64,000 bases of DNA from Gigantopelta aegis (lineage: Eukaryota > Mollusca > Gastropoda > Neomphalida > Peltospiridae), in contig NC_054700.1 in the NCBI RefSeq assembly GCF_016097555.1, positions 53,875,701-53,939,700 of the forward strand. Reading direction: 5' to 3'. The notes beneath the pieces are model-generated. The model did not search any database, had not been told where the DNA came from, and saw nothing but the letters and a program-made list of their open reading frames with translations. The position numbers and the translations under genes were made by a program. Below are positions 4,182 to 63,625 of the stretch, one piece after another (positions within the stretch are counted from its first letter, which is position 1; each line of letters starts with the position of its first letter).

Positions 4182-25213
<21,032 letters not shown>

Positions 25214-25322
25214 GTAGCGCCTAAAACCCAAATGGCAAAACCCAAATTTATATAAAGATCAAGAGCAGATAACTCTAGTAATATTCCGTCGAGTTTTGGT
25301 TCTTGTTTGAAGACACTAGGAG
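25214..25322. promoter_or_regulatory. probable shared (divergent) promoter of REXO2 and PGPEP1
   Basis: Lies just upstream of the REXO2 ATG. On the plus strand an excellent 5' splice site, AGGAG|GTATGT, sits at 25322/25323. The first coding exon of PGPEP1 is itself preceded by an acceptor (TCTATTTGCAG at 27749). A non-coding first exon of PGPEP1 ending at 25322 would therefore start within about 100 bp of REXO2. This is inference; there is no transcript evidence. Confidence 0.35.
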
Positions 25323-27749
25323 GTATGTCCGACTTTCGTTTCAATTAGGTCTTAACGCATCTTGTTTTGCAATCGTTATGAAATACGGTTTAATGTTTGG
25401 GTGTTTGATAAACCCTTGAGTGGGTCCATTACTTTTTTCGGTCGAAACACCCACAGATTTGAGTACACATACTTAAAGTCTTTGTTCAATTGTCAATGTT
25501 TGTCACTCGCTGACTCAGTCTGGCTGAACAAAAAGAATAACAAATGCCCCAAACTCCGTTGTTAGGGTAACGAAATGAATTACGTACATTATTTTTGATT
25601 TGTGTGCATGTCCCTTAAATACTGAGCAAACATTTCTAAAATTACTAATTATTTAATTATGATAATAATATCGTTTTTTGTTTATATTTACTAATAATAA
25701 TATGCCATGTATACTCTCACCCTGTTGAGTGGTTGTCTCTATTAAGTCGTACCATTTGGGATTTTACCCCTTTTTAAAGTAATACACCACCTATCGTTTG
25801 TTTACGTTCCAAGTCTCACAGTAAGATGTGTAGACAGTCAAATAGCTAAGAAATTTTAGTACATTCTATTATTTGCTACAGTTTACCTTAAAAATTCATT
25901 TTTTTTACACAGGAACCAAAATAGGTCAAAATCATATGACCCGTATGCCAATTAAAACATTGGTAGTTTTCGTAATTTATGGCAATCATGCCCAAAATAT
26001 ATATCGAAGGGTCATCTGCATGTGCATGTTTATTTTTACGTATTAGTGAGTGACGTCAGTAAAAATGTGAGGTCACACATCAATTGTTTTTCCATGCAAG
26101 CAAATAAGGGCGCTAAAATTTTAAAACATAAACTAAGATGTAGATCAATACAGTTTTACATTAAAAATATGGCTATTACTACAATATGTATAGTGAGTAT
26201 TAATTTTTGAATAAATATTTAAAAAAAATATTTAGATAAAAAATACAATTAGAAATAACCAAAGCTATTTGAAAAACGAAAAAGACGTTTGTCCCAGCTT
26301 ATTTTGCAAGCAATATTTTAAACACCATGCAGCAACCTGCTGACTGCTAAATCAATAAAACAATTTTCATAAAAACAGTTCCTTTTTATTGATTTCTTCA
26401 AGACATAAATTCAACCAAGCAAATTGCTACTGTATACTTTGTTCTTATGACGTTTTGCCCTTCTATACTTGAAAATAGTAAATAACACGACTCAATAGAG
26501 TTATATTTTTTTAGACTGATTGTAAGCACGTGTGTACTTTTGATTGCATCAAAGATGTAGATTTTTCTGCATTGTTGGTTTAAGTAACAATTAAAAATTT
26601 TCTTCAACTAATAATTGTAATAAAATTACAAAGCAGTTTTAACATATACTAATACAATTATTAAGTACCTCGACTAACCAGGGTCCCAATTGTTACATGT
26701 ATTGTAATTTTGAGACCCTAAGGTTTGACTTGATCGGAAGGACCATACTTTGAAACTGACAACAATATAAATGTCACTTACCTGTACATACATATGTTAA
26801 TAGTAATGACAAATGAAAATAAAGTCCACTGGAACACTGCTGATATAATAAACACCGTTCCAAACACACTCCCCCTAAAACAAGTGACATCCGGGCAGAC
26901 TCCGAGTATCGTAAAGTCGAGAGTAGACACATTTTTACTTTATATGATGTCACATTCAATCGAGATTACTTAAAAGAAAAGTTTTGTTTCTGGAGCATTT
27001 TATTACATTTCTTTTGTATTGGAAAAAAACCCTACTGATGAAAAGGACAGTAAAATTCATAAAACAATGAATAATAAAACATTATAAAATTTTAAATGGT
27101 GACAGGTGACAACAGTTACTGTGGAAAAAGTGAAAATCAGTATGGAACATAATTTTCTGTTCATTGTTTTGACTATTGGACTTACAGTGAGGGCAAAACA
27201 ATTGATCATATCTTTCCTAATTACGTACTCTTTCTTTTGTTAAAAGTTATGAAAAGCAGAATGTCTGGCATTATAACCCACTCTTAAGCAATCTGTCAGT
27301 GCTTTATTTGATGTTTATTTCAGAATACCCCCAACTCTGTTAGTACCCATTTAAATACTTTATCATGGCCTTACATAGTCCCTCCCAATGTGTCACATGA
27401 CCGAAAGCTGTCAGTTTTGCCATTTTTGTCTACTTCTATATTTTGATAATGCTGTGTTTTGTTTCGAGGGTAAAAATGGGGATTAGTGAAAACAGTTAAA
27501 AACTATATAACAAACATTTTGTTCTGGTTCTATCTGTTTGTATTGCATTATTTCTGTGAAACTTGTTCTTAGCCTCTTGGTGTCTCTTCTGATGTTTTTA
27601 TTAGCAAAAACAATGGTTGAAGCACCAGCATGCTCACAAATTTCACGAAAATCGCTGAGTCTCGAACTTAGAATACTCTTGATTTTACAATACTCTACCA
27701 TATCATTAATTTATAGAGAGTTAAAGATTTGATTGAATTCTATTTGCAG
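25323..27749. other. putative 5' intron of PGPEP1; nothing else recognised
   Basis: AT-rich, no repeats of note and no recognisable coding. Short open frames at 26398-26607, 26774-26959 and 27483-27732 lack family resemblance. Confidence 0.45.
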
Positions 27750-27758
27750 ATCTACAAG

Positions 27759-27792
27759 ATGCCAGAAACCACGAGAACGGTTGTAGTAACAG
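27759..27792 (+). CDS. PGPEP1: PGPEP1 coding exon 1
   Basis: ATG then MPETTRTVVVT plus the first base of Gly12, before donor GTTATT. Human reads MEQPRKAVVVTG. The exon probably begins at 27750 after acceptor TCTATTTGCAG, so 5'UTR would lie on a separate upstream exon. Confidence 0.9.
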
Positions 27793-30700
27793 GTTATTGT
27801 TTATACTTTATTTTTCTTGCTAGTATGCATATTCATTCATTTTTTTCAGGGGGTGGGAAGAACCCACCTCTATTACCCAATACGCCCCCCCCCAAAAAAA
27901 AAAAATAAAAAATAAAACAGCATCATCAACAGTTAAACAGCCCATTCTAGCTAGCTGTGTGACCTAATTCAGGGCAAAAAGACTTTTAAGGAAGGAAGGA
28001 AATGTTTTATTTAACAACACACTCAACACATTTTATTTACGGTTATATGGTGTCAGACATGCTTAGGGACCACACAGATATAGAGAGAGGAAATTTGCTG
28101 TCTCCACTTCATGGACTACTCTTTTCAATTAGCAGCAAGGGATCTTTTATATGCACTATCCCACAGACAGGATAGTACATACCACAACCTTTGTTACACT
28201 AGTTGTAGAGCACTGGCTGGAACAAGAAATAGCCCAATGGGTCCACCCACAGGGATCGATCTTAGACCGACCGCACATCAAGTGAAAGCTTTACCGCTGG
28301 GCTACATCCCGCCCCCCAAAAAGAGACTTTTAAGATGAAACAGCTTGTGGGGAAATGACCCCTTACCATTTTTATGGTATTCATAGATTCCACGAGCAGA
28401 GTTTCTGCCACAGGCTAAAACGGGTATGGCGCAACAACACCCAAATTTGTTTGCAGAGTCAACCTTTTGACAAAATTAATTATTCTTACCATTACTGTAT
28501 GAGTTTCTTAACCCTAACCCTAAACTTAAGCCATTTTCTTTATGGGAAAAGCCCCCCCCATACCCCCCCCCCCCCCCCCCCCCCCCTTACCCCCTGTTGA
28601 TTGTGGTTGCAATCAATTTCATAGCGCCATACCCAAAGATTTCTTTCTGGCAGAAACACTGACAAGTGGTCTTATACTTGTCTGTCAGCAGCTGGCAATG
28701 TCAGAAGTTGGAAACATGGTGGCCATGTGTGAACCTTTGGTGAATATATGCATGTAGCTCGAGTCACCTCTAGCCCTCCCCTTTAGGCTTATTGATATGT
28801 TTTAGGGGAGGGCTGGAAGGGACTGTATGTAATACTTCGGCAGTTGTCAACGACCAAATGGTAGCCAAAAACTACTGTATCTAAAATACAAATTTTTGCA
28901 TAAATCTAATGACACAGAGCTTTAGTTTGATTATTATCGAGTCCAGTGATGACATTAAACTTACATGTTGTTAACCAGTACCAACGCTACATGAAGAAAC
29001 CCGACACCTCTATGCAAATGGAAGTGAAACTGCACTGTATTTTTTTGTGGTGACGCAGAGCAAAGTGTAAGTCGACGTGACACATATCAATAACGGGAGG
29101 GCTAGAGGTGACTCGAGCTAATATGCATGGCGATCAGAAAGGACCTTGACCCATGGGAGGCAGATTCAACTCGATACTCAGTAGTAGAATGTTTACTTGG
29201 TGTGCAGTGAGGTGAATGAATGAAACACCCGCATGAAAAATATATCAGCCATTTTAAAATGAAAGAAATATTTGTTTAATGATGCCTCAGCACTTTTTAA
29301 TTAAACCATATAGCTATTAGATGTCTTACATAAAATGGTTATTTCAACTCGTGATCAAGAGAAACTTGATGCTTCAAGTTATTCAACATCTAGACTGCTC
29401 CCACTTGTATAGTAATTATAAACTGCCCTCAAATTAACATCATCTTGCTATGTTAGTTCAACACAGACAACATCCAAGTAAATGCCCTCAAAATTAACAT
29501 CATCTTGCTATGTTAGTTCAACACAGACAACATCCAAGTAAATGCCCTCAAAATTAACATCATCTTGCTATGTTAGTTCAACACAGACAACATCCAAGTA
29601 AATGCCCTCAAAATTAACATCATCTTGCTATGTTAGTTCAACACAGACAACATCCAAGTAAATACCCCATAATGATAAAAATGATAAAATTGCAGATAAT
29701 TTATAAGAAAGCTTTTCGAACCGGAGTATTCAAGGGTCAAACTTGACCTGGAACCGAGTAGCCGACACATACATAGATGACGATGACTTATGAGACTAAA
29801 GGAATAAAGTAAAATAGCATTATATGCATCTTAGTTCCAGCCCTGAACATGGATGCCAAATGATGCCATTGTATTTCATTCCACACATTCGACTTTTGTT
29901 TTCCATCCATGTCTCATAGTCCTACTGTATAATGTAACTGACGTAACACAGTATAATTAAACAAGAGTGTTCTTCCTTGTACGGGTACTCGTGTCCTGTG
30001 AACAGACTCAAGTCTTGCTAGACTCAGCCCGTGCCCGAGTACTTGAGTAATCGTGGAGGCCCTACAGGGCAGTACATATCACGATCTTTGATTCAACAGT
30101 CATAGGGAATTTGTTGGAACAGGAAAAATGTCAGTTGAGGTTGATCAATCCTGTGGCCCATATTGTGCCTCACACGAGTGCCATACCAACAGGGCTCGAA
30201 ATGGCCTTTGGCCAGGTCGCCAAATGCGACCAATGTCCCGTTTGGGTGACTTAAAAAAACAAACAAAAATGGCGTTAGTCGCCCAAATAATATTATTTGG
30301 GCTATCTTCTTCAGAGCTATAACATATGAGCCACTATTAATATTTGTATTGCATATATTTATTCCACATTAAAATCTTGCTCGTGATTCATGGTTCACTT
30401 ACCTTAATTTGCCAACATCCATTATTATTTTTTGGGCCACCATATTTTTTGGCGAGTTTCGAGCCCTGCATACCACTGAGCCACATTCCACCCTGTGCAA
30501 TATTAGAAAACATTTTATTATTGCTACTGAACAACAAAAGAAATGCAGATCTATGTTAATTTTGTTTTCTTTTAGTTATTTAGGAGATAACCATATGGAG
30601 TTTTTAGATTTGCGGGTGTTATTTAGGAGATAACCATATGGAGTTTTTAGATTTACGGGTGTTATTTAGGAGATAACCATATGGAGTTTTTAGATTTGCG

Positions 30701-33700
30701 GGTGTTATTTAGGAGATAACCATATGGAGTTTTTAGATTTGCAGGTGTTATTTAGGAGATAACCATATGGAGTTTTTAGATTTGCGGGTGTTATTTAGGA
30801 GATAACCATATGGAGTTTTTAAATTTGCAGGTGTTATTTAGGAGATAACCATATGGAGTTTTTAGATTTGTGGGTGATATTGTCTATTTGATCCATTTTT
30901 TACCAAAGGCATTAGCCTGAGGTTAAGAATTAAACATTTGCAGGCATCAAATAGACAATAACACCCGCAAATCTAAAAACTCCATATGGGCTTGGGCTTG
31001 GAGATTCCATTGTAAACAGAATCGTTTTTCTATGGAACTAACTGTATATTTGGTATTTCTTGAAAAAAATACCTGGCTACAATTTAACTGTAGACCCTTG
31101 AATCGCCAACTTCGCCTGTTCCAATTGACATCATTAGCTTTCTGGGTGTTATTTTCATTTGATCCCAGAAAAAGAATGTAATTAACCAATCACAATACAG
31201 AACACACTCAACAACAGTTTAAAATTAAAATTATTCAGTTTTCAATTTAGTCTCATTTGTGTCTGTTAAAATTATGAATGTCTTGGCCCATTTTAACAGT
31301 CTATTACCAAGTTAATTATGTCATGAAACAATATATACATGTATATGTTGAAATAGTCACTATTTACCAAATTAATTATATCATGAAACAATATATACAT
31401 GTATATGTTAAAATAGTCACTATTTATCAAATTAATTATATCATAAAACAATATATACATGTATATGTTGAAATAGTCATTACTTACCAAGTTAATTATA
31501 TCATGAAACAATATATACATGTATAATGTTGAAATAGTCATTACTTACCAAGTTAATTATATCATGAAACAATATATACATGTATATGTTGAAATAGTCA
31601 TTACTTACCAAGTTAATTATATCATGAAACAATATATACATGTATAATGTTGAAATAGTCATTACTTACCAAGTTAATTATATCATGAAACAATATATAC
31701 ATGTATAATGTTGAAATAGTCACTATTTACCAAGTTAATTATATCATGAAACAATATATACATGTACGTGTTGAAATAGTCACTGTTTACCAAGTTAATT
31801 ATATCATGAAACAATATATACATGTATATGTTGAAATAGTCACTGTTTACCAAGTTAATTATATCATGAAACAATATATTTACCAAGTTAATTATATCAT
31901 GAAACAATATATACATGTACGTGTTGAAATAGTCACTGTTTACCAAGTTAATTAAACAATATATACATGTACGTGTTGAAATAGTCACTATTTACCAAAT
32001 TAATTATATCTTGAAATAATATATACATGTACATGTTGAAATAGTCACTATTTACCAAGTTAATTATATCATGAAACAATATATACATGTACATGTTGAA
32101 ATAGTCACTATTTACCAAGTTAATTATATCATGAAACAATATATACATGTACATGTTGAAATAGTCACTATTTACCAAGTTAATTATATCTTGAAACAAT
32201 ATATACATGTACATGTTGAAATAGTCACTATTTACCAAGTTAATTATATCATGAAACAATATATACATGTATATGTTGAAATGGTCACATTTCTTGTGTG
32301 TTTCAGTGTATATTTGTGAATTTTTAAGGAAGACACAAACTGGTGGATTTATTTAGATTTTAGTGTGGGACGTAGCCCAGTGGTAAAGCACTCGCTTGAT
32401 GTTTTGTTGGTTTGGGATTGATCCCCGTCGGTGGACCCATTAGGCTATTTCTCGTTCCAGCTAGTGCACCACAACTGGCTGTGGTATGTGCTATATCCTG
32501 GTTGTTGGATGGTGCATATAAAAAATCCCTTGTTGCTAATTGGAAAGAGTAGCCCATGAATATCTGTGTGGTCCTTAACCATATGTCCGACACAATATAA
32601 TCGTAATTAAATGTGTTGAGTGTGTCGTTAAATAAATCATTTCTTTCCTTCCTTCCGTATTTAGATTTATCTTGCACCCACTGTTTCTATTAACCGATTA
32701 TGATCACTGATTAAAGCAAAGTCATGAACATACATGTATACTAGCAGATTATGATTTGGCATCTCTCATGTAACGTTACATGCATACATGTATACTAGCA
32801 GATTATGATTTGGCATCTCTCATGTAACGTTACATGCATACATGTATACTAGCAGATTATGATTTGGCATCTCTCATGTAACGTTACATGCATACATGTA
32901 TACTAGCAGATTATGATTTGGCATCTCTCATGTAACGTTACATGCATACATGTATACTAGCAGATTATGATTTGGCATCTCTCATGTAACGTTACATGCA
33001 TACATGTATACTAGCAGATTATCATTTGGCATCTCTCATGTAACGTTACATGCATACATGTATACTAGCAGATTATCATTTGGCATCTCTCATGTAACGT
33101 TACATGCATACATGTATACTAGCAGATTATCATTTGGCATCTCTCATGTAACGTTACATGCATACATGTATACTAGCAGATTATGATTTGGCATCTCTCA
33201 TGTAACGTTACATGCATACATGTAAATTAGATACATTACAAAATAGCTCATTTGACTTCTAGCTATATGTCACCATACAATGTAGCTGAAATAACAGACA
33301 TGATAGATTTTCAATTTAATTTTTATGGACTACAAGATAAAAATAATAACTAATTAATGATGTAGGATATCTAGGGAAAATTTAGTTTTCAACATCTTGA
33401 TTAGTGATATTTCTAGTCAATTAAAAATTGATTAGCAACTACTGTTTAATGTTTTAAAATTGTATAGCGATCTCTGAAAGCTGTGTAGCGAATCGCAACA
33501 CCGAACAAAATGTTCCCTGATATCTGCGTATCCTGTTCAGGCTAAATTGGAAATTACCATTCTTACCATCGCAGGATATAAAGCAGATATTCTGAGTCAG
33601 TAACTACTTATTCTTTGTCTTATTTGCATATGAAATTAGCAGTATTAAAAGAAGTTTTAAATTTCTGTTTCAGGGTTTGGCCCATTTGGCAACTACAAGG

Positions 33701-36700
33701 TGAATGCGAGTTGGGTGGCTGTGCAGGAGTTGAAGAAGCTCGGGCTTGGAGACGACATCCAGCTGGTTATTGAAGAGATTCCCGTTGAATACAATTCGGT
33801 ACAAAATATTCTGCCATCATTCTGGGAAAAACACCAACCTCTGGTTTGTATTCAGGGTATAAGTGTATACCTATTTATAGACTTGATTTGTTATATGTAT
33901 TCAGTGTATAACAGTATACCTATTTATAGACATGATTTGAATGAATGAATGAATGAATGTTTAACGACACCCCAGCACGAAAAATACATCGGTTATTATG
34001 TGTCAAACTATGGTAATGGAAACAAATAAGGTGATGATCAACATCAACAGAAAAATTCAAGATATAAATAAAAACAATGTAAAGAACTGTGCAAAAATAC
34101 AAATACAAATATCACAGATAGATACTGACTTACTCTAAACTTCAATTTGTGCTGTATTGGCCATTCTCAAAGAGAATGTTACACCACGGTGAGGTTACAG
34201 CACGCGCAGGGGAGACTTGATTTGATATATGTATTTAATGTATAACAGTATACCTATTTATAGACGAATACCACTAGAGTACCGTGATTAATTAATCACT
34301 GGCTACTGGATTTCAAATATTTGTTAATTCTGACATGCGTCAATGAATGAGTGAAAGAAAGAATGACTGAATGGATGACTGAATAAATGAATGAATTAAT
34401 GGATTAATGACTGAAAGAATGACCGAATGGGTGACTAAATGAATGGAAGAATGAAATGACATACATGCATGTATTGTTAATAATATTAAAAAAAACAAAA
34501 AAACAAAAAAACTAAACAAATATTTTCACAGTATTGTAAGACAGCTATTAATTGTTTGCATACTAACACTTATGTGGGACACCTATTGTGTTGGCATACT
34601 GGTTTTTTATTGTACAGCTTGTGTATTTTACATGTATGTGGGACAGCTGGGTTTTTTTACATATTGTTAATAAAAATAATTTTGCATTTTATCTTCACAG
34701 CTTGTCGTTCATGTCGGGGTGTCGGGTCTGGCCACAGAGCTGACCCTGGAACAACAGGCACATAACAGTGGCTATGACAAAATCGATGTGTGTGGCGAGC
34801 ATCCCACAATGCATTGCTGTGTCGAAGGGGCCGATGATTGCCTGGTCTCAGAAATCGATATGAAATATGTGTGCGCTGAGGTTAATAATTCTGGATTAAA
34901 GGTCAAGGCTGTTGTGTCACATGACCCTGGAAGGTGAGTCAGAGATGGATGCAGGATTTTTTTAGGCAGGGGATTCAATATTAAAAAAGAGGGCCGACAG
35001 GATTCCAATGTACTCTGACCTGAATGAAAGTTAGTTAAAGTTTGCTTTATATAATGATGTCACTAGAGCACATTGATTTATTAATCATCAGCTATTGGAT
35101 GTCAAACATTTGGTAATTTCAATTCTTAATTCTGAAGGAACCCACTACATTTTGTCCATTGGCAGCAAGGGATCTTTTATATGCATTTTGCCACAGACAG
35201 GAGAGCACATACCATAGACTTTGATATACTAGTCGTGAGGCACTGGTTGGGATGGGAACTACCTTGAATGAAGGCAGTTGTACCAAAAAACAAGTAACCG
35301 ATCAAGATATACATCTTCAAAACTATACAAAAAAATTCATTATATTCAACCACTAAACACTATATATGTATGTATACAATGTAAGTGTGAGTATTTAGTT
35401 CTATGTCCACAAATACTATACTACACATTTGGTGCATTTGATACATGTCAGGGCTGGAATGTTGTTAAACATTCATCTGTCCATCCATTCATTCTATCAT
35501 TCATCCATTCATTTAGTCACCCATTCAGTCATTCTTTCAGTCATTAATCCATTTATTTATTCATTCATTCATTTAGTTATACAGTCATCCATTTATTCAT
35601 TCATTCATTGATGCATGTCATAATTAACAAATATTTTAAATCCAATAGCCAATGATTAATTAAAAAAAAGAAAGAAATGTTTTATTTAACAACGCACTCA
35701 ACACATTTTATTTACGGTTATATGGCGTCAGACATATGGTTACGGACCACACAGATATTGAGAGAGGAAACCTGCTGTCGCCACTTCATGGGCTACTCTT
35801 TTCGATTAGCAGCAAGGGATCTTTTATATACACTATCCCACAGACAGGGTAGAACATACCACGGCCTTTGATGTACCAACGGAGATCGATTCCAGACCGA
35901 CTGCACATCGAGCAAGCGCTTTACCATTGGGCTACGTCCTGCCCCCCCCCCCCCCAATGATTATTTAATCACCGTACTCTAGTGGTGTCATTAAACAAAA
36001 CAAACTTTTAACTTTTTAATTATGGTATGACATATACAGGGGTTGTATTAGCAGATTTTGTAATTTGTTCAATATCTGTTTGTTTTCTAGTTCCTCTATT
36101 TGTTTTCTAGTTCCTCTATTTGTTTTCTAGTTCCTCTATTTGTTTTCTAGGTGCTGTATTTGAAGTTGCTCTATTTGTTTTCTAGTTGCACTATTCGTTT
36201 TCTAGTTGCTCTATTCGTTTTCTAGTTGCTCTATTCGTTTTCTAGTTGCTCTATTCGTTTTCTAGTTGCACTATTTGTTTTCTAGTTGCTCTATTTGTTT
36301 TCTGGTTGCTCTATTTGTTTTCTGGTTGTTTTATTTGTTTTCTAGTTGCTCTATTTGTTTTCTGGTTGCTCTATTTGTTTTCTGGTTGCTCTATTTGTTT
36401 TCTAGTTGCTCTATTTGTTTTCTGGTTGTTTTATTTGTTTTCTAGTTGCTCTATTTGTTTTCTGGTTGTTCTATTTGTTTTCTGATTGCTCTATTTGGTT
36501 TCTGGTTGCTCTATTTGGTTTCTTGTTGCTCTATTTGGTTTCTAGTTTCTCTATTTGAAGTTGCTCTATTTCTTTTCTGGTTGCTCTATTTGGTTTCTTG
36601 TTGCTCTACTTGGTTTCTAGTTGCTCTGTTTGTTTTCTAGTTGCTCTATTTGTTTTCTAGTTGCTCTATTTGAAGTTGCTCTATTTGTTTTCTAGTTGCT

Positions 36701-39700
36701 CTATTTGGTTTCTAGTTTCTCTATTTGTTTTCTAGTTGCTCTATTTGGTTTCTAGTTTCTCTATTTGAAGTTGCTCTATTTCTTTTCTGGTTGCTCTATT
36801 TGGTTTCTTGTTGCTCTACTTGGTTTCTAGTTGCTCTGTTTGTTTTCTAGTTGCTCTATTTGTTTTCTAGTTGCTCTATTTGTTTTCTAGTTGCTCTATT
36901 TGAAGTTGCTCTATTTGGTTTCTAGTTGCTCTATTTGGTTTCTAGTTGCTCTATTTGTTTTCTGGTTGCTCTATTTGAAGTTGCTCTATTTGTTTTCTGG
37001 TTGCTCTATTTGTTTTCTGGTTGCTCTATTTGAAGTTGCTCTATTTGTTTTCTGGTTGCTCTATTTGGTTTCTTGTTGCTCTATTTGTTTTCTGGTTGCT
37101 CTATTTGTTTTCTGGTTGCTCTATTTGTTTTCTAGTTGCTCTATTTGTTTTCTGGTTGCTCTATTTGAAGTTGCTTTATTTGTTTTCTGGTTGCTCTATT
37201 TGTTTTCTGGTTGCTCTATTTGAAGTTGCTCTATTTGTTTTCTAGTTGCTCTATTTGGTTTCTAGTTTCTCTATTTGTTTTCTAGTTGCTCTATTTGGTT
37301 TCTAGTTTCTCTATTTGAAGTTGCTCTATTTCTTTTCTGGTTGCTCTATTTGGTTTCTTGTTGCTCTACTTGGTTTCTAGTTGCTCTGTTTGTTTTCTAG
37401 TTGCTCTATTTGTTTTCTAGTTGCTCTATTTGAAGTTGCTCTATTTGGTTTCTAGTTGCTCTATTTGGTTTCTAGTTGCTCTATTTGTTTTCTGGTTGCT
37501 CTATTTGAAGTTGCTCTATTTGTTTTCTGGTTGCTCTATTTGTTTTCTGGTTGCTCTATTTGAAGTTGCTCTATTTGTTTTCTGGTTGCTCTATTTGGTT
37601 TCTTGTTGCTCTACTTGGTTTCTAGTTGCACTGTTTGTTTTCTAGTTGCTCTATTTGGTTTCTTGTTGCTCTACTTGGTTTCTAGTTGCTCTGTTTGTTT
37701 TCTAGTTGCTCTGTTTGTTTTCTAGTTGCTCTATTTGTTTTCTAGTTGCTCTATTTGAAGTTGCTCTATTTGGTTTCTAGTTGCTCTATTTGGTTTCTAG
37801 TTGCTCTATTTGTTTTCTGGTTGCTCTATTTGAAGTTGCTCTATTTGTTTTCTGGTTGCTCTATTTGTTTTCTGGTTGCTCTATTTGAAGTTGCTCTATT
37901 TGTTTTCTGGTTGCTCTATTTGGTTTCTTGTTGCTCTATTTGTTTTCTGGTTGCTCTATTTGTTTTCTGGTTGCTCTATTTGTTTTCTAGTTGCTCTATT
38001 TGTTTTCTGGTTGCTCTATTTGAAGTTGCTTTATTTGTTTTCTGGTTGCTCTATTTGTTTTCTGGTTGCTCTATTTGAAGTTGCTCTATTTGTTTTCTGG
38101 TTGCTCTATTTGTTTTCTGGTTGCTCTATTTGTTTTCTGGTTGCTCTATTTGTTTTCTGGTTGCTCTATTTGTTTTCTAGTTGCTCTATTTGTTTTCTGG
38201 TTGCTCTATTTGAAGTTGCTTTATTTGTTTTCTGGTTGCTCTATTTGGTTTCTAGTTGCTCTATTTGGTTTCTAGTTGCTCTATTCATTTTCTGGATTTG
38301 TTTCAAGTGTCATTGTGATTTCTTGTACATATCTCTGCACATGGATTAGTGAAAAAATTTTTTAGTCTTCCATTATTTTTTAAATTTAAATGTACATATC
38401 ATTGTCCATATCTGATCATATTGATCAGTTTATTACTGAACTATAGTCCTTCCTACAGGGAATTTTTGTTTTCATACTGTGAAATTTACTAAAGGTTATT
38501 TATTTCCGAGTCGATTGTTTTCAAAATTGCACACAAAAATAGGTGTTTTTATGTTATTTTTAAAACAGTTTCACTTTTCTTCTCACATTAAACAAAACTA
38601 AAATTATTTACAAAAAAAATAAGAAATTGTAGGATTGGACAGACTGTAGCTAGTTGGTTTATTAGTTTTCGCTGGTTTTGTTTCAGGTATCTCTGTGATT
38701 TCTCTTACTACGTATCTCTACACATCGATCGATATCGCTCAGCCTTTATTAGTTTTCGCTGGTTTTGTTTCAGGTATCTCTGTGATTTCTCTTACTACGT
38801 ATCTCTACACATCGATCGATATCGCTCAGCCTTTATTAGTTTTCGCTGGTTTTGTTTCAGGTATCTCTGTGATTTCTCTTACTACGTATCTCTACACATC
38901 GATCGATATCGCTCAGCCTTTATTAGTTTTCGCTGGTTTTGTTTCAGGTATCTCTGTGATTTCTCTTACTACGTATCTCTACACATCGATCGATATCGCT
39001 CAGCCTTTATTAGTTTTCGCTGGTTTTGTTTCAGGTATCTCTGTGATTTCTCTTACTACGTATCTCTACACATCGATCGATATCGCTCAGCCTTTATTAG
39101 TTTTCGCTGGTTTTGTTTCAGGTATCTCTGTGATTTCTCTTACTACGTATCTCTACACATCGATCGATATCGCTCAGCCTTTATTAGTTTTCGCTGGTTT
39201 TGTTTCAGGTATCTCTGTGATTTCTCTTACTACGTATCTCTACACATCGATCGATATCGCTCAGCCTTTATTAGTTTTCGCTGGTTTTGTTTCAGGTATC
39301 GCTGTGATTTCTCTTACTACGTATCTCTACACATCGATCGATATCGCTCAGCCTTTATTAGTTTTCGCTGGTTTTGTTTCAGGTATCTCTGTGATTTCTC
39401 TTACTACGTATCTCTACACATCGATCGATATCGCTCAGCCTTTATTAGTTTTCGCTGGTTTTGTTTCAGGTATCTCTGTGATTTCTCTTACTACGTATCT
39501 CTACACATCGATCGATATCGCTCAGCCTTTATTAGTTTTCGCTGGTTTTGTTTCAGGTATCTCTGTGATTTCTCTTACTACGTATCTCTACACATCGATC
39601 GATATCGCTCAGCCTTTATTAGTTTTCGCTGGTTTTGTTTCAGGTATCTCTGTGATTTCTCTTACTACGTATCTCTACACATCGATCGATATCGCTCAGC

Positions 39701-40846
39701 CTTTATTAGTTTTCGCTGGTTTTGTTTCAGGTATCTCTGTGATTTCTCTTACTACGTATCTCTACACATCGATCGATATCGCTCAGCCTTTATTAGTTTT
39801 TTGCTGGTTTTGTTTCAGGTATCTCTGTGATTTCTCTTACTACGTATCTCTACACATCGATCGATATCGCTCAGCCTTTATTAGTTTTCGCTGGTTTTGT
39901 TTCAGGTATCTCTGTGATTTCTCTTACTACGTATCTCTACACATCGATCGATATCGCTCAGCCTTTATTAGTTTTCGCTGGTTTTGTTTCAGGTATCTCT
40001 GTGATTTCTCTTACTACGTATCTCTACACATCGATCGATATCGCTCAGCCTTTATTAGTTTTCGCTGGTTTTGTTTCAGGTATCTCTGTGATTTCTCTTA
40101 CTACGTATCTCTACACATCGATCGATATCGCTCAGCCTTTATTAGTTTTCGCTGGTTTTGTTTCAGGTATCTCTGTGATTTCTCTTACTACGTATCTCTA
40201 CACATCGATCGATATCGCTCAGCCTTTATTAGTTTTCGCTGGTTTTGTTTCAGGTATCTCTGTGATTTCTCTTACTACGTATCTCTACACATCGATCGAT
40301 ATCGCTCAGCCTTTATTAGTTTTCGCTGGTTTTGTTTCAGGTATCTCTGTGATTTCTCTTACTACGTATCTCTACACATCGATCGATATCACTCAGCCTT
40401 TATTAGTTTTCGCTGGTTTTGTTTCAGGTATCTCTGTGATTTCTCTTACTACGTATCTCTACACATCGATCGATATCGCTCAGCCTTTATTAGTTTTCGC
40501 TGGTTTTGTTTCAGGTATCTCTGTGATTTCTCTTACTACGTATCTCTACACATCGATCGATATCGCTCAGCCTTTATTAGTTTTTTGCTGGTTTTGTTTC
40601 AGGTATCTCTGTGATTTCTCTTACTACGTATCTCTACACATCGATCGATATCGCTCAGCCTTTATTAGTTTTCGCTGGTTTTGTTTCAGGTATCTCTGTG
40701 ATTTCTCTTACTACGTATCTCTACACATCGATCGATATCGCTCAGCCTTTATCCACGTCCCACCATTACACAACCCGTACAGTGCAGAGGAGCTTGCTGA
40801 GGGTCTGCGCTCTGCCATCCTGGCCATGCTGCAACAGTTGTCATGA
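27759..40846 (+). CDS. PGPEP1: pyroglutamyl-peptidase I, whole gene (four coding exons)
   Basis: Cytosolic cysteine peptidase (family C15) that removes N-terminal pyroglutamate from peptides. Exons: 27759-27792, 33674-33843, 34701-34933 and 40690-40846, all GT/AG, totalling 594 nt = 197 residues (human 209). Clear matches: VVVTGFGPFG, VNASWVAVQELKKLGLGD, IPVEYNSVQ, LLVVHVGVSG, GRYLCDFSYY and SAFIHVPPL. The catalytic Glu85 (TLE), Cys149 (YLC) and His168 (FIH) fall at the human numbers. The C-terminus ends MLQQLS, shorter than the human tail. Intron 3 (5.8 kb) carries a 20-bp minisatellite and 23 tandem copies of the exon 4 acceptor region, an organisation I know from no other gene. Confidence 0.96.
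27991..28323 (-). mobile_element. SINE, family A, full length with target duplication
   Basis: Minus-strand copy flanked by AGACTTTTAAG at 27980-27990 and 28324-28334. Head on the minus strand: GGGGCGGGATGTAGCCCAGC. Box B GGATCGATC is partly kept. Confidence 0.93.
28397..28661. mobile_element. MITE, TTTCTGCCAG family, copy 2
   Basis: Ends CAGAGTTTCTGCCA.. and ..TTTCTGGCAGAAACACTG, with inner GGTATGGCGC and GCGCCATACC. A C24 run interrupted by TTACC lies at 28563-28596. Internal CCCTAACCCTAAAC matches TTAGGGTTAAG of copy 1 in reverse. Confidence 0.75.
28755..29120. mobile_element. MITE with perfect 26-bp terminal repeats and 9-bp target duplication
   Basis: The left end TAGCTCGAGTCACCTCTAGC(CCTCCC) is mirrored exactly at the right. 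ATATGCATG flanks both sides (28746-28754 and 29121-29129). A second inverted GGGGAGGGCT close inside the left end makes it fold on itself. A 9-bp duplication fits Mutator-like elements. No transposase; non-autonomous. Confidence 0.88.
29262..29345 (-). mobile_element. SINE, family C tail fragment, decayed
   Basis: ATATTTGTTTAATGATGCCT.. CAGCAC.. AGCTATTAGATGTC matches the family C tail (GCTGGGGTGTCGTTAAACAT on the minus strand) with many changes. Confidence 0.5.
29424..29664. repeat. 60-bp tandem array, 4 copies
   Basis: GCCCTCAAAATTAACATCAT, CTTGCTATGTTAGTTCAACA, CAGACAACATCCAAGTAAAT. The copies are identical except for one A missing in the first, so the expansion is recent. Confidence 0.97.
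30062..30495 (-). mobile_element. old SINE interrupted in its head by the MITE at 30190-30468
   Basis: Left part: GGGCAGTACATATCACGATC, TTTGATTCAACAGTCATAGG, TTGATCAATCC. Right part after the MITE: CATACCACTGAGCCACATTCC, which read on the minus strand is a tRNA-like box A (GGAATGTGGCTCAGTGGTAT). Very diverged. Confidence 0.55.
30190..30468. mobile_element. hAT-like MITE, 8-bp target duplication
   Basis: Ends CAGGGCTCGAAA and TTTCGAGCCCTG. CATACCAA (30182-30189) and CATACCAC (30469-30476) flank it, an 8-bp duplication with one mismatch. Terminal CAGGG and 8-bp duplications are usual in the hAT superfamily. Length 279 bp, no transposase. Confidence 0.85.
30576..30876. repeat. 43-bp tandem array, 7 copies
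   Basis: Unit TTATTTAGGAGATAACCATA, TGGAGTTTTTAGATTTGCGG, GTG. The last copy runs into a foldback element whose arm has the same sequence. Confidence 0.96.
30848..30989. repeat. foldback element sharing its arm with the 43-bp array
   Basis: Left arm CCATATGGAGTTTTTAGATT..GGGTG.TATTGTCTATTTGAT. Right arm ATCAAATAGACAATAACACC..CTAAAAACTCCATATGG. The loop is about 50 nt. Confidence 0.85.
31300..32287. repeat. 60-bp tandem array, about 16 copies
   Basis: Unit GAAATAGTCACTATTTACCA, AGTTAATTATATCATGAAAC, AATATATACATGTATATGTT. There are small indels and a partial unit near 31880. Open frames on both strands are repeat translations. Confidence 0.96.
32361..32657 (+). mobile_element. SINE, family A, full length on plus strand with target duplication
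   Basis: Head GGGACGTAGCCCAGTGGTAA (box A), TTTGGGATTGATCCCC (box B), the body, and tail GTGTTGAGTGTGTCGTTAAA. Flanked by TATTTAGATTT at 32350-32360 and 32658-32668. Confidence 0.93.
32728..33222. repeat. 54-bp tandem array, about 9 copies
   Basis: Unit ACATGCATACATGTATACTA, GCAGATTATGATTTGGCATC, TCTCATGTAACGTT. A G/C variant (ATTATGATTT or ATTATCATTT) groups three adjacent copies. Confidence 0.96.
33674..33843 (+). CDS. PGPEP1: PGPEP1 coding exon 2
   Basis: From acceptor TTTCTGTTTCAG to donor GTTTGT. It encodes (G)FGPFGNYKVNASWVAVQ.. ELKKLGLGDDIQLVIEE.. IPVEYNSVQNILPSFWEKHQ-PL, residues 12-68. It contains the GFGPF motif and the substrate-pocket region of the C15 fold. Confidence 0.96.
33939..34212 (-). 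mobile_element. SINE, family C (tail GGTGTCGTTAAACATTCATTC)
   Basis: The (GAAT)n tail and TTTAACGACACCCCAGCACG are at the left, with a different pol III-like head at the right (minus strand CCTGCGCGTGCTGTAACCTC). Flanked by AGACATGATTTGA and AGACTTGATTTGA, a 13-bp duplication with one mismatch. It split an older tandem duplication (TATACCTATTTATAGAC, copies near 33875, 33925 and 34250). Confidence 0.8.
34363..34460. repeat. (GAATGACT)-type degenerate simple repeat
   Basis: Runs of GAATGA/TGACTGAA units in PGPEP1 intron 2. Nothing else is seen in 34265-34700 apart from an A/C-rich tract near 34490. Confidence 0.8.
34701..34933 (+). CDS. PGPEP1: PGPEP1 coding exon 3
   Basis: From acceptor ATCTTCACAG to the strong donor GTGAGT. 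It encodes LVVHVGVSGLATELTLEQQA.. GYDKIDVCGEHPTMHCCVEG.. VSEIDMKYVCAEV.. VVSHDPG plus two bases of Arg146. Holds catalytic Glu85. This donor faces the 24 candidate acceptors downstream. Confidence 0.97.
35030..35262 (-). mobile_element. SINE, family B, head missing
   Basis: GTTAAAGTTTGCTTTATATA.. GTCACTAGAGCACATTGATT at the left, the body up to AGTCGTGAGGCACTGGTTGG, then stops. Confidence 0.82.
35460..35612. repeat. (ATTC/ATCC)n simple repeat
   Basis: CATCCATTCATTC-type units, likely the residue of a family C SINE tail. No SINE body is attached. Confidence 0.85.
35645..36012. mobile_element. family A SINE (minus) nested in a family B SINE tail (plus)
   Basis: Outer family B tail on plus: CCAATAGCCAATGATTAATT at the left and CGTACTCTAGTGGTGTCATT at the right. 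Inside, at about 35664-35953, is a full minus-strand family A copy. CCAATGATTAATTA and CCAATGATTATTTA at its two ends look like the target duplication. The inner copy lacks about 50 bp of the body (TTGATGTACCAACGGAGATC). Confidence 0.85.
36078..38294. repeat. 20-bp minisatellite with higher-order blocks (about 2.2 kb)
   Basis: Basic unit TCTATTTGTTTTCTAGTTGC, with TTTTCTGG and TTTGGTTTCTTG variants. A 15-bp short form (TCTATTTGAAGTTGC) is dispersed through it. Longer blocks recur: the stretch from about 36720 reappears near 37270, and the stretch from 36900 reappears at 37440 and 37755, so segments of several hundred bp were themselves duplicated. It is pyrimidine-rich with frequent TTTTCTAG, and lies in PGPEP1 intron 3. 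Confidence 0.96.
38293..38345 (+). repeat. decayed copy of the PGPEP1 exon 4 acceptor and exon start
   Basis: CTGGATTTGTTTCAAGTGTC, ATTGTGATTTCTTGTACATA, TCTCTGCACAT aligns with CTGGTTTTGTTTCAGGTATC, TCTGTGATTTCTCTTACTAC, GTATCTCTACACAT. The CAG/GT at the splice point has become CAA/GT. It is clearly older than the 87-bp array and separated from it by a MITE. Confidence 0.75.
38442..38648. mobile_element. MITE (TATAGTCCGTCC family), copy 1
   Basis: Ends TATAGTCCTTCC.. and ..GGACAGACTGTA. Its interior (GGTTATTTATTTCCGAG, AAATTGCACACA, TTACTTTTCTTC-like) matches the element at 45719-45921. Flanking TA is consistent with a TA target. It sits immediately before the exon-copy array. Confidence 0.75.
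38658..40689 (+). repeat. 23 tandem 87-bp copies of the exon 4 acceptor plus exon start
   Basis: Each unit is 24 nt of intron end (TAGTTTTCGCTGGTTTTGTT-TCAG) plus the first 63 nt of PGPEP1 exon 4 (GTATCTCTGTGATTTCTCTT.. to ..CAGCCTTTAT). Exon starts fall at 38687 + 87k for the first 13, 39819 + 87k for the next 9, then 40603, and the true exon at 40690. Two units carry one extra T (TTTTTTGCTGG, near 39800 and 40580). Otherwise only a few substitutions occur (one T-to-G at about 39301, one G-to-A near 40391). Each copy encodes RYLCDFSYYVSLHIDRYRSA-FI, including catalytic Cys149 but stopping before His168. TTTAT occurs at both original breakpoints. Confidence 0.97.
40690..40846 (+). CDS. PGPEP1: PGPEP1 coding exon 4 (terminal)
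   Basis: Acceptor GGTTTTGTTTCAG. It completes Arg146, then YLCDFSYYVSLHIDRYRSAF-IHVPPLHNPYSAEELAEGLR-SAILAMLQQLS and TGA at 40844. Holds Cys149 and His168. Only this copy of the duplicated acceptor continues into the His-bearing 3' part. A G28 run follows 45 nt after the stop. Confidence 0.95.
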
Positions 40847-43596
40847 CAACGGTCAGGCATGATGCTTTCCAGTCAGCTGTATCCAATATTCGGGGGGGGG
40901 GGGGGGGGGGGGGGGGGGGTTGTGAAGATGTAATCATTGTTTTTTTGTTTTGTTTTTGATTGTAAGGTACTGTGGAAAATGCTTGTTTGGTGATTCTGTG
41001 TATCTGGAGAACGTCTGGGTTTTGGGTTTTTTCTTCTGCTGTGTGTAGAGATTGTGTACGTACAGGCATTAATTTGCAGTCTTTGTCTTTGAATGCTTAG
41101 AAGTTGAGTGCATCATTAAATAAAACATTTCTTTCTTTGTATGCTTATACATAATCAGAGTTATATGTTGTAATGAAAATTGGTGGCAATTAAGCTATCA
41201 GAAAATAGTGTGTTAGTTGAACATGCAGAAGTTCATACCGATGGATACAAATAAGGGATCTTACATTTTTATTCAATTATATACTAGTCACAAGAAGCCA
41301 ATTCGCTGTGCCAGTGGTATGGAAATGCTTTTGTAGTTGGACGACAGAATGGCTTACTTGCAGGCATCTCTCTATTTGTCTCGTGGATATGCTATCATTC
41401 AGACATGGCAGAGATCGACCACAGTCCAGAATGCTCAGTTTACGTTTTGGTGGCATGGTTATCTGAAGCCAGATTGCATAGATATTTATATTTTACATGC
41501 ACCATGCAGTTTTCAGGCAGGTTCTGTGCTTTAATTTTTTAATGCATTTGCCGTATGTTTTCTACTGACAACCAAACAAGCTGTGAGTAAAAGGCTCATG
41601 TACATGCAATCTGAAATGATTTATTCAACTCTGTAAACTACTTTTCACTACCTATCACCGCCCCTGATTATTATTTTTATTTTTATTAAGTAAAATTCGA
41701 CACTTGTTGTGACTGGTATAGTTTTTATGATCATACAGCATGTGGTGGTAGCAGCCAAAACCCTCATCCATAGTCAGTGTGTCAGGAAATTAATCATGTT
41801 ACATTCAATCCTATATTAACCATTGGTATTTTACACAGACATTTGTTTTTCAACTTAGCCTGACCTCAAACACATGGCATTTTCCACCCACTTAAAAAGA
41901 CTGGTCCAAACATCTTAACAGTCAATGGGATGGCGTAAAATCTTCCAATGAATCCACTGCTTCCTGTTCTGGTCATGTGACTGAAGCTTCCTTCTTTGTC
42001 CTTCGCTCGTATGGACCAGACATCTTTTCTTTTCTCTTGTAAAATCTAAGCCAACCAAACGATCCAGTGTTTTACATACTGTATTAATGCTCTAGTGGTG
42101 TTGTTAAACCTTTGTTTTTTAGCTAAACTATGTTAGTGAGTTAACAATACCATGTGTTCCCTTATTTCCAGTTGTACCGAGTATATTGTATACTAGTAAC
42201 TGATCTGTGATTAAATAATCAACTGAAATGTTTACACAGTGACTATATATTTATCAATATATATCATTTGATAATGGAATTTCTTTTAAATCATTGACTG
42301 ATGACTAGAGATATGTGATGGAGGGGGGGGGGGGGGGGGGGGGGGGTATAAAGGGGGAGTAGTATGGTTGCATCTCTTGTCAAATGAAATTTCATGTAGG
42401 TTTTGGAGTAAATCGGATATAAAAACTGTAGCAATTTTGGAATGTGTTTTAGGCAAAACCAGTAATACCTCCATATAATATGAATAAGTCACATGCCTAT
42501 AAGCCAAATGGGTGGGGACGTTGGGGGTAGGATGGGTAAGGATTGGATCTCATGGTTTTCATATATTATTAACAACACATTCCATCTCTCCTATTACTTA
42601 AACAAAGTGAAATAGTGAACTATAGCTGCTGTCATTTTTTGTCACAGGTTCTGATTGTCAGCTCTTGATATTTTGTGTAAATTATACAATGTTACAACAA
42701 TTACCATAATAACTGAAGCATTATTAATGTATATTCATGTATACCTGTAGGCCTACACATGTATATATATATATGTATATATTCTCCTAAAAGTTGTAAC
42801 AGATTTAATACATGTGACAGCTGACGGTGTAAATTCAGTATTCCAGAAAAATTGTATACATAGCTCACAATGCAGGATTTTCTTTTTTGTCAATTTTCAG
42901 ACGATTTTTCAAAATTAATTATTTTTTTAAAATAGTAATTTTAGCTAAATTTTATTGGCCATATACAGGTAATTTTTTAATCAATTTTATTTTTGTCACC
43001 AAATTTACATACAAATTAGGCAACTGATATTGTGTAACTAACATTTTCAGCTACATGATAATTGTATGGTTACGTAGCTAAACTGATTTAATAGGCGTGT
43101 TTTCACCGATTTAATATGACAGTGAAACATATAGCAAGTAATTTCTGGACCAATAAATGTTGTTGCTATTATTTTATTTTAATATTGTTATTATTTATTG
43201 TTATTATTATTAGGGTTTTTTTTGTGTGTTTTTTTAAGAATATCATACCATTTTCACTTTGATCAGGTATAACGTGAATAATACATTAATTTTTGAAGTT
43301 TTTTCTTCATTCATATTTTTGAAATATATATGTAAGGCCTGAAAGAAAATGTTTCCAGGATTTGCTGAAACAAAATCGATACAGTTGATATAGGCTTTTT
43401 TTCCTTTTTAAACTACATTTTTACTCTTTTTACCTGCATAGTAACAAAAAAAAATAATAATAAAATAATACATTAATTTTTTTAGGGTGTGGTAATTTTT
43501 TTCTAGGTAGGGTCAGGTTCCTGGAAACACATTTTTTTAAAGAGCCTAATAGTAATACTATAAAGTAGATATTTGTCTCACATTAGAAAATTTCAT
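40847..43596. other. PGPEP1 3' region, no further gene recognised
   Basis: Holds G28 (40892-40919) and a family A SINE tail on plus (41098-41140, GTTGAGTGCATCATTAAATA) that supplies an AATAAA usable for 3'-end formation. It also holds the dispersed repeat shared with 5645-5850 (41540-41745), a family B SINE tail on plus (42086-42122, GCTCTAGTGGTGTTGTTAAA) and G24 (42323-42346). The rest is AT-rich, with no coding seen. Confidence 0.55.
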
Positions 43597-45298: not shown

Positions 45299-46644
45299 CA
45301 GTAGCTCAAACTGGATACAAGTAAAATAAATAGTATCCCTGAAACTAGAAATACATACATGTAGTATCTTGGGCTTTAAATTTTATTTAGAATATTATAC
45401 TAATAGTAACTGCATGTGACCCATCAAATTAGGTTTATCCACCTCTATCATATATTATCAGATATAATTTTACCCTTGTTGCCTTTTTGTTTTTAGTGAT
45501 CCCATCAAATTAGTTCATTCACCTCTAACAAGTACTGTACATGTAAATCATAAAGTATTAACTCTCTTAAAATATAGCGAAATCCAAATATATTAGTGAC
45601 ATATTAGTGACATAAAACTTTACTGAGGTTGTCATATCAGGAACTTAAAAACCCCCAGCTAAAATAATACTTTTTATAATTGTTTAAGTTACGCAGCTTA
45701 TGCAGAGAACTTAAGTTATAGTCCGTCCCACAGGGATCACATTTTTATCATACTATGTAATTCACTACAGGTTATTTATTTCCAAGCCAATTGATTTGTA
45801 AATGGCACACACAAATTGTATTTCTTTGTTATTTCCAAAACACTTACTTTTCTTCTTACGTCAAACTAAACTGAAATTATGTACAAAAAACTATTTTAAT
45901 AGAATGATGAGACGGACTGTAGGTGAAAAATGTGCAGTATAATGTGCCATATGCTGATAAACTATTTTTGTTTGCTATCCTATTGGTTTAATCAACATGA
46001 TGTATAGACATTTATGTGTGTTCAGTTAATCACTGATAAAACAATTTACACAAACGGTTTTTTTTTTAACATCTATTGTAAGTCTGTTTAAATTTAGCAT
46101 CATGAAATATTAGTGTCTTGTACGCCCTCTCTAACGTTTTATGCTCACTAACATTTCCTGATTTACAGTATTGACATTATAATTTTACCCTTGTTGCCTT
46201 TCGGGTTTTCATTCTTAACACATTGTGCCTACACTTAAGTTTCCAAAACACCAAATGTTCAGTTGTGGCTCTTACATGTATGTGCTTTGTCACAAACTGG
46301 TGTTGTCTAGTAACGTCAAGCTGCATAGAATACATCTACATACATACATACATATATCTACATATATACATGTGTATGTACATATATATATATATAAATC
46401 CAAATTCTCAATGTTTAGTAAGTATTTTGAAAATGTGACATTCATTGATTATATGTCTGAATTAATATGTTCCCCCATGGGAATGGATAAATTGTTTTTT
46501 TTAATAAGAACAATTTAAAAAAACACATTACAAGCTTAAAAATCTGAGACCATGAACTTTCAACTCGTAGCTAGCTACACATATGGCCGAATTTACAAAA
46601 GGATTTTTTTTTAGATGCATGGTCTTAAAACATGGACAAAATAT

Positions 46645-62791: not shown

Positions 62792-63343
62792 TCACAATTT
62801 CTCCACAAATAAGACTCTGTCATTTTTCAGGCTCGTTGTGGCCGTATTCTCATCGTCACTGTACCGAATAATTTTTGTGAGTTTCACCGGTTCTTTGGGT
62901 TCCTTAATCCGCTCTTCCAAACGCTGCGTCATGTTGAGGCCGCTGGTAATCAGCTTGCCGAAGCCCTCTTGGTGAGAGAATGCGTAGCCAGACCGCAGTG
63001 ACCGTGTGCTGTGTCTCACGAAGGACTGCCGGTGGATGTGTGACTCTCGCGACCGTGATTTCAGCTTCTTTATCCTCTGCCTGAGTCGGACTCTGTCGGA
63101 CAGAGACGCCGTGATGTTGGTCTTGTAGAAGCGGTATGCGACCACAGGGACGATGAGGATGGTGCAAGTCAACAACAGGCACAGCCAAAAGCTGGGCGAG
63201 GAGAAGACGGCGAATGCGACACCGATGTACGTGTAGTGGATGCCATTGGAGTAAAACGCCAGAATGAAACAGAAGTAGTAGATGATACTTCCCCAGATCA
63301 CAAAGTGATTGAAACCAGTCCAGTAGGAAGTATCGAGAGCACA
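62792..63343 (-). CDS. ATP8B: phospholipid-transporting ATPase, ATP8B type, last coding exon
   Basis: C-terminal 183 residues of a P4-ATPase (lipid flippase, works with a CDC50 subunit); full proteins are about 1,200 residues, so the rest lies beyond the right edge. The exon starts at 63343 after acceptor GCTTTGTTTCTTCAG, phase 0: CALDTSYWTGFNHFVIWGSI. Two membrane spans follow (FNHFVIWGSIIYYFCFILAF and SFWLCLLLTCTILIVPVVAY), then a basic cytosolic tail (SDRVRLRQRIKKLKSR) and SGYAFSHQEGFGKLITSG. The last matches human ATP8B2 (RRSGYAFSHQEGFGELIMSG) and the GYAFS motif of P4-ATPase tails. Stop TGA at 62792-62794. Which ATP8B paralogue it is cannot be told. Confidence 0.93.
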   Translation of the reverse strand, partial: CALDTSYWTGFNHFVIWGSIIYYFCFILAFYSNGIHYTYIGVAFAVFSSPSFWLCLLLTCTILIVPVVAYRFYKTNITASLSDRVRLRQRIKKLKSRSRESHIHRQSFVRHSTRSLRSGYAFSHQEGFGKLITSGLNMTQRLEERIKEPKEPVKLTKIIRYSDDENTATTSLKNDRVLFVEKL

Positions 63344-63625
63344 CTGAAGAAACAAAGCAGATGATGATGATACAATAATATTATATATACTTTTAACTCA
63401 TGGCCAACAGTGAAGTATTTTCAGTATAATACCCATACCTCTTTCAATCTGTGCCAACCAATATGATACCAAATGAACTTTAATGACTGATCTAAAACAT
63501 AAATACATGGTGTTCATAAAGGTCCTACCAATTTTACTGTACCAATTTTCAATCACTATAAAGTAGTTTTGTGTAATAAAATATTTTTGCTAGGCCTATG
63601 TAAAAAACCCAGTTTATAATAAAAA

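Follow-up and report, generated by a model that had tools for sequence, protein, structure and literature searches.

Twenty-four tandem, near-identical 3' splice sites at the last intron/exon boundary of a PGPEP1-like gene in Gigantopelta aegis, most likely a tolerated minisatellite expansion

We analysed a 64,000-nucleotide stretch of the genome of the gastropod Gigantopelta aegis (the window; GCF_016097555.1, NC_054700.1, positions 53,875,701 to 53,939,700 of the forward strand), in which a PGPEP1-like gene carries its intron 3/exon 4 boundary in 24 head-to-tail copies, each with an intact 3' splice site (acceptor). All positions given here are those of the window. The array is real and striking. 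Its sequence indicates an expansion that is most likely tolerated and spliced out; support for a role in regulation, or in producing isoforms with multiplied cysteines, extends as far as an open reading frame and no further. Beyond the initial annotation of this DNA, which had described the array, the analysis adds a donor-like motif after 23 of the 24 acceptors, a decayed older copy of the same boundary, the acceptor-like sites of a neighbouring 20-bp array, and exon 1 of the gene.

The array and the exon into which it runs comprise the following features:
38658..40752, + strand: 87-bp array, the intron 3/exon 4 boundary in 24 copies (Tandem Repeats Finder, TRF: period 87, 24.1 copies, 99% matches)
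39789..39876, + strand: unit 14, a frame-shifting variant of 88 bp (unit splitting)
40573..40660, + strand: unit 23, likewise of 88 bp and carrying the variant of unit 14 (unit splitting)
40690..40846, + strand: true exon 4, coding part including the stop; its first 63 nt are part of unit copy 24

Each 87-bp unit consists of 24 nt of intron 3 and 63 nt of exon 4, with copy 24 forming the start of the true exon 4. TRF and unit splitting both confirmed the earlier claim of 24 tandem, near-identical 3' splice sites, and the array fits the size class of minisatellites or variable number tandem repeats (VNTRs), with head-to-tail units within 10-100 bp (87 bp x 24.1). Twenty of the 24 units are identical; unit 8 carries a T>G change and unit 20 a G>A change, while units 14 and 23 carry one common variant, TTTTCGC to TTTTTTGC, in which a C>T change is accompanied by an additional T. 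These two 88-bp units split the acceptors into blocks of 13, 9 and 2, as had been described; the cause given for the split, two single-T insertions, requires amendment, since each is a C>T change together with the extra T. Unit 1 comes after unique intron sequence (...TTGG|TTTATTAG) and the last unit continues into exon 4 (...GCC|TTTATCCACG). The unit breakpoint falls in a 5-bp microhomology, TTTAT, which makes 24+63 nt and 29+58 nt equivalent descriptions of the unit. Units differ pairwise by 0.33 events on average (0.37% per site), which points to an array that is young or well homogenised. There are three distinct unit variants, two of them exonic and both missense, the third frame-breaking; two of the three seem to be CpG transitions, which suggests real mutation and not read error. 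Ten pairs of inverted repeats of at least 16 nt were found in 34934-41200, and none of the ten has an arm inside the array.

The exonic first bases of the 24 acceptors run from 38687 to 40603 and 40690. All 24 acceptors are intact: ...GCTGGTTTTGTTTCAG|GTAT and TTTCAG|GTAT are present in 24/24 units, with TTTCAG|GTATCT in 23/24 copies and TTTCAG|GTATCG in unit 8. Scoring covered donor and acceptor motifs and used generic matrices of base frequencies. In the 87-bp array 24 of 74 AGs equal or exceed the score of the true acceptor (the true one included), and the initial annotation's view that the 24 acceptors are of equal quality is upheld. The same is true of 7 of 68 AGs in a 20-bp minisatellite further upstream in intron 3, described below, and of 0 of 73 elsewhere in 34981-40846.

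The gene could be completed as four coding exons, the joined frame of which is open and encodes 197 amino acids; the first three exons lie upstream of the array:
27759..27792, + strand: exon 1, coding part (MPETTRTVVVT/G), with donor CAG|GTTATT and an acceptor-like TTTGCAG upstream
33674..33843, + strand: exon 2, with donor CTG|GTTTGT; the Pfam family PF01470 spans exons 2-4
34701..34933, + strand: exon 3, with the strong donor AAG|GTGAGT

Exon 1 was sought with a filtered scan of 18001-33600 (an ATG, a hydrophobic end, and T or S followed by G|GT), which returned two candidates. That at 27759-27792 is preferred because TVVVTGFGPF suits the start of the pyroglutamyl peptidase family as represented by the human protein. 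The product of exons 2-4 matches PF01470 (Peptidase_C15) with an E value of 1.4e-17 and 64.9 bits against a cut-off of 22.7, and it matches 19 distinct sequences of solved pyroglutamyl peptidases (best 2e-14). These matches, with the completed four-exon model, bear out both the identification as PGPEP1 and the exon numbering originally proposed. The unit includes the Cys of a YLCDF motif and ends directly before a His codon, again as first reported; in the alignments to 3rnz and 1aug these residues align to a Cys and a His that we take to be the catalytic residues of pyroglutamyl peptidases. Soon 3' of the stop codon lies a run of 28 G at 40892-40919. A scan of the gene's 3' end for bacterial promoters and terminators gave no match; the model is a bacterial one and is uninformative for this gene.

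If nothing inside the array is re-spliced, the consequences of joining exon 3 to each acceptor follow from the frame. Translation confirmed that the native frame of the unit is without a stop; one other frame is also open, and the third contains stops. Acceptors 1-13 lead to a stop at 39830 and acceptors 14-22 to a stop at 40614. Acceptor 23 (40603) gives the full enzyme with 29 extra residues, and acceptor 24 (40690) gives the normal protein. Two further statements of the initial annotation therefore hold, namely that acceptors of the earlier blocks meet stops and that acceptors 23 and 24 are the sole ones to yield a full enzyme. Stop-triggered decay of mRNA can depend on an exon junction downstream of the stop. 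The stops in the array sit in the terminal exon, so decay of that kind would not be expected to apply.

There is little in the immediate surroundings of the acceptors by which the true one could be told apart. Seventeen of the 23 upstream acceptors are identical to it for no fewer than 81 nt upstream and 63 nt downstream. Upstream agreement with the true site is 29 nt for acceptor 1, 16 nt for acceptors 14 and 23, and 36 nt for acceptor 21; acceptors 8 and 20 agree with it over 5 and 50 nt downstream. Given this local identity, it would mainly be position, kinetics or sequence beyond the first 63 nt of exon 4 that could mark acceptor 24. In a simple first-come model, in which each emerging acceptor is taken with probability p, the share of enzyme-making joins is (1-p)^22, that is 0.10 at p=0.1 and 0.50 at p=0.031. 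Either there is a strong distal choice, or early joins are mended by re-splicing, or the enzyme suffers.

Re-splicing comes into consideration because the acceptor AG is followed directly by GTATCT in 23 of the 24 units and by GTATCG in unit 8, so that each unit is flanked on both sides by possible splice sites. The motif CAG|GTATCT has a donor score of 5.82, and AAG|GTATCT, the junction made when exon 3 joins an array acceptor, scores 5.69. For the three donors of the gene itself the scores are 4.79, 3.74 and 12.25, which places the array motif above two of them. Among the 3664 GT dinucleotides of the window, 3.4% score at least 5.82, array copies counted. Within 34941-40750, 26 GTs score at least 5.8 and three of these lie outside the array. 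The 24 AG|GT sites thus have in their sequence the juxtaposed acceptor and donor by which recursive splicing is recognised. The motif is also a by-product of the Arg-Tyr-Leu codons at the phase-2 junction. Whereas the initial annotation took the units as acceptors only, an array unit could also act as a mini-intron or recursive-splice site, and upstream choices might then be undone by re-splicing. All routes that finish at acceptor 24 and retain no unit produce one and the same normal mRNA.

On this basis we consider the array to be, more probably than not, a young minisatellite that is mostly removed as intron, a tolerated and nearly neutral expansion and not a device. A segment reaching from the last part of intron 3 into the first part of exon 4 would have undergone tandem duplication between two TTTAT microhomologies, followed by amplification in minisatellite fashion to 24 near-identical units. 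Minisatellite birth is common in the window, where 19 arrays (period at least 12, at least three copies) cover 16009 of 64000 bases (25.0%) and seven lie within the PGPEP1-like gene; that one of them lands on a splice boundary can be explained without any particular cause. With AG|GT at both sides, a unit could be excised scarlessly. The main mRNA would join 34933 to 40690. This could take a single step, if the terminal exon with its poly(A) site gives the distal acceptor an advantage, or proceed stepwise, with 34933 first joined to an early acceptor and the rebuilt AAG|GTATCT donor next to one further on. Truncated or unit-extended proteins would result from leaky use of acceptors 1-22.

Several observations weigh against this explanation. 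For enzyme at half level p must not exceed about 0.031, a low probability for sites identical with the true acceptor, and equal use of the acceptors would give full enzyme from 2/24 joins. The donor motif departs from consensus at +4 and +5, and a donor-like site with a higher score lies in intron 3 beyond the array (35381, 9.22, the highest of the three noted above). Re-splicing at exon junctions is, moreover, described as being repressed by the exon junction complex in human cells; the same source reports no such effect in Drosophila S2 cells (PMC6224609).

Serial recursive splicing is one of the two routes within the explanation just given, and its probability overlaps with that explanation. 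Here AG|GT-to-AG|GT segments would be removed one or several at once along a ladder of ratchet points, which are described as juxtaposed acceptors and donors (PMC8605326). The array has the corresponding arrangement, with GTATCT directly after AG in 23/24 units and GTATCG in unit 8, and a motif that outscores two of the three real donors. The codons at the junction explain the motif with no need for selection, however, and its fit to the donor consensus is imperfect at the two positions already named. Intronic ratchet points reportedly need a cryptic exon, with donors stronger than that exon's own (PMC8605326), and the repression in human cells (PMC6224609) counts against this process too; we therefore regard it as rather unlikely. 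In a more specific form, a 24-step ladder, early joins would form as acceptors emerge and be re-spliced to the last, and copy number would set the delay and yield of the enzyme mRNA. Such a ladder, which we consider quite unlikely, would if true be a minisatellite transparent to splicing, with every unit its own intron.

Alternatively, the array might mark a loss-of-function allele or a mostly silent gene, in which most transcripts would be joined to acceptors 1-22 and terminate within the array, with the enzyme supplied by another allele or a paralogue, or dispensable. That 22/24 acceptors reach a stop in the array unless re-spliced, and that the first-come arithmetic is severe (a tenth of joins productive at p=0.1), speak for this, but the four exons otherwise share an uninterrupted frame and have recognisable splice signals, though the scores of donors 1 and 2 are low, and the idea is unlikely. 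Competition among the 24 acceptors could instead be used to set the enzyme level or to produce isoforms with multiplied cysteines. All 24 acceptors are intact, the period is divisible by three and the native frame is open within each block; yet one in three periods is divisible by three by chance, two identical units break the frame, both exonic variants (2/2) are missense, and the sparse variation carries no sign of selection for the units. As proof, the divisible period with an open frame was set aside, as its chance is about 1 in 4 by a hand estimate and a second frame is also open. Coding selection on the units was likewise rejected, given the two missense variants and the shared frame-breaking one, though two variants prove little. 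We judge a regulatory or isoform-making use distinctly improbable. Near-identical repeats are a classic site of misassembly, but the array has four variant units, one variant common to units 14 and 23, and unique flanks on both sides, and the window contains further long arrays, among them one of 63 copies of a 95-bp unit; an assembly artefact is accordingly most improbable.

Three further features lie between exon 3 and the array:
36075..38293, + strand: 20-bp minisatellite in intron 3, about 115 copies, with 31 TTTTCTAG acceptor-like words (TRF, acceptor scoring)
38282..38346, + strand: an older, decayed duplicate of the intron 3/exon 4 boundary, in which the acceptor CAG has become CAA (75.7% over 70 alignment columns, E 1.2e-7)
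38442..38617, + strand: interspersed repeat in the stretch from the decayed copy to the array; a related copy lies at 45717-45890 (79.8% over 178 alignment columns, E 8.2e-38)

The decayed copy has a local score of 57; 500 first-order random sequences reached 39 at most, and the next best place in the window 27 (among 610 chunk-strand comparisons). Taken singly, its exonic part reaches 34, where 1000 shuffles gave at most 33 and the next place 24, and its intronic part reaches 26, where the next place gave 24; the strength of the match comes from both parts falling in one collinear alignment. It is thus very likely, on sequence grounds, that the intron 3/exon 4 boundary was duplicated once before and that this copy decayed. 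It sits right at the end of the 20-bp minisatellite, the units of which seem to be in register with the pyrimidine tract. The 20-bp unit weakly resembles the last part of intron 3 (score 21, p 0.04 by shuffling), a tentative hint that it may have descended from there. The spacer from the decayed copy to the array was considered as part of a longer old duplication, and this was rejected on finding that its middle, 38442-38617, is the interspersed repeat.

Elsewhere in the window, a 95-bp unit array at 13854-19833 extends over 6 kb with 63 copies and 98% matches. Pieces of a transposase, presumably Tigger/pogo-like, lie at 21205-22773, with Tc5-type DNA-binding and DDE_1 domains across three open reading frames, and 62792-63355 on the minus strand encodes the C-terminal part of a phospholipid-translocating P-type ATPase (PF16212, 3e-14).

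Splice-site choice has earlier been studied with constructs that carry duplicated sites. The array offers a natural test of choice among identical sites, with 24 acceptors and one strong donor in one gene, and bears on whether the choice falls on the first, the last, a random or a stepwise-reached site, and on how much minisatellite invasion is tolerated before a gene fails. It may also show intron gain by tandem duplication midway, with near-identical copies beside an older, decayed copy of the boundary.

The initial annotation held that no described gene is so organised. A gene with many tandem acceptors was indeed not found in the open-licence literature searched; as to kind, the statement is too strong, for duplications in CBS and cases of intron gain are akin to the array. 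Like the array, the human CBS 844ins68 allele is a tandem duplication over the end of an intron and the start of an exon that creates a second splice site, although it has one extra 68-bp copy where the array has 23 extra 87-bp copies. A second repeat of the same gene, a 31-bp VNTR, is reported to yield alternative splice sites. It too is a many-copy minisatellite, by its name over an exon/intron border of an enzyme gene, but that name places it on the donor side of the exon, and the array is at the acceptor. PMC2630376 gives this VNTR as c.1444_1467+7 with 16-21 copies, and describes 844ins68 as a duplicated intron 7/exon 8 boundary at which the distal site is strongly preferred and the mRNA is normal; it says 'donor' in this connection, and its references include a paper on 3' splice site selection in 844ins68.

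In the potato RdRp gene a duplicate of an intron end and exon start is described as having created a new intron (PMC4974935); there are two copies there, compared with 24 at an existing boundary here. Two introns gained in fission yeast (Schizosaccharomyces SPOG_01682 and SOCG_00815) are described as tandem repeats with proto-splice sites, and for one of them an expressed sequence tag spliced out a longer stretch than annotated, for which the authors urge further study (PMC3629103). Those units are of 24 nt and the array's of 87 bp, and excision of the array units is so far a prediction. For recursive splicing in Drosophila, donor strength, exon sequence and removal of the upstream intron all seem relevant (PMC8605326). 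Ratchet points and recursive-splicing exons (RS-exons) share with the array an acceptor directly followed by a donor motif, and a donor rebuilt at the junction; they differ in being reported from long introns or annotated exons, whereas the array would present 24 such sites head to tail, each with a weak putative donor.
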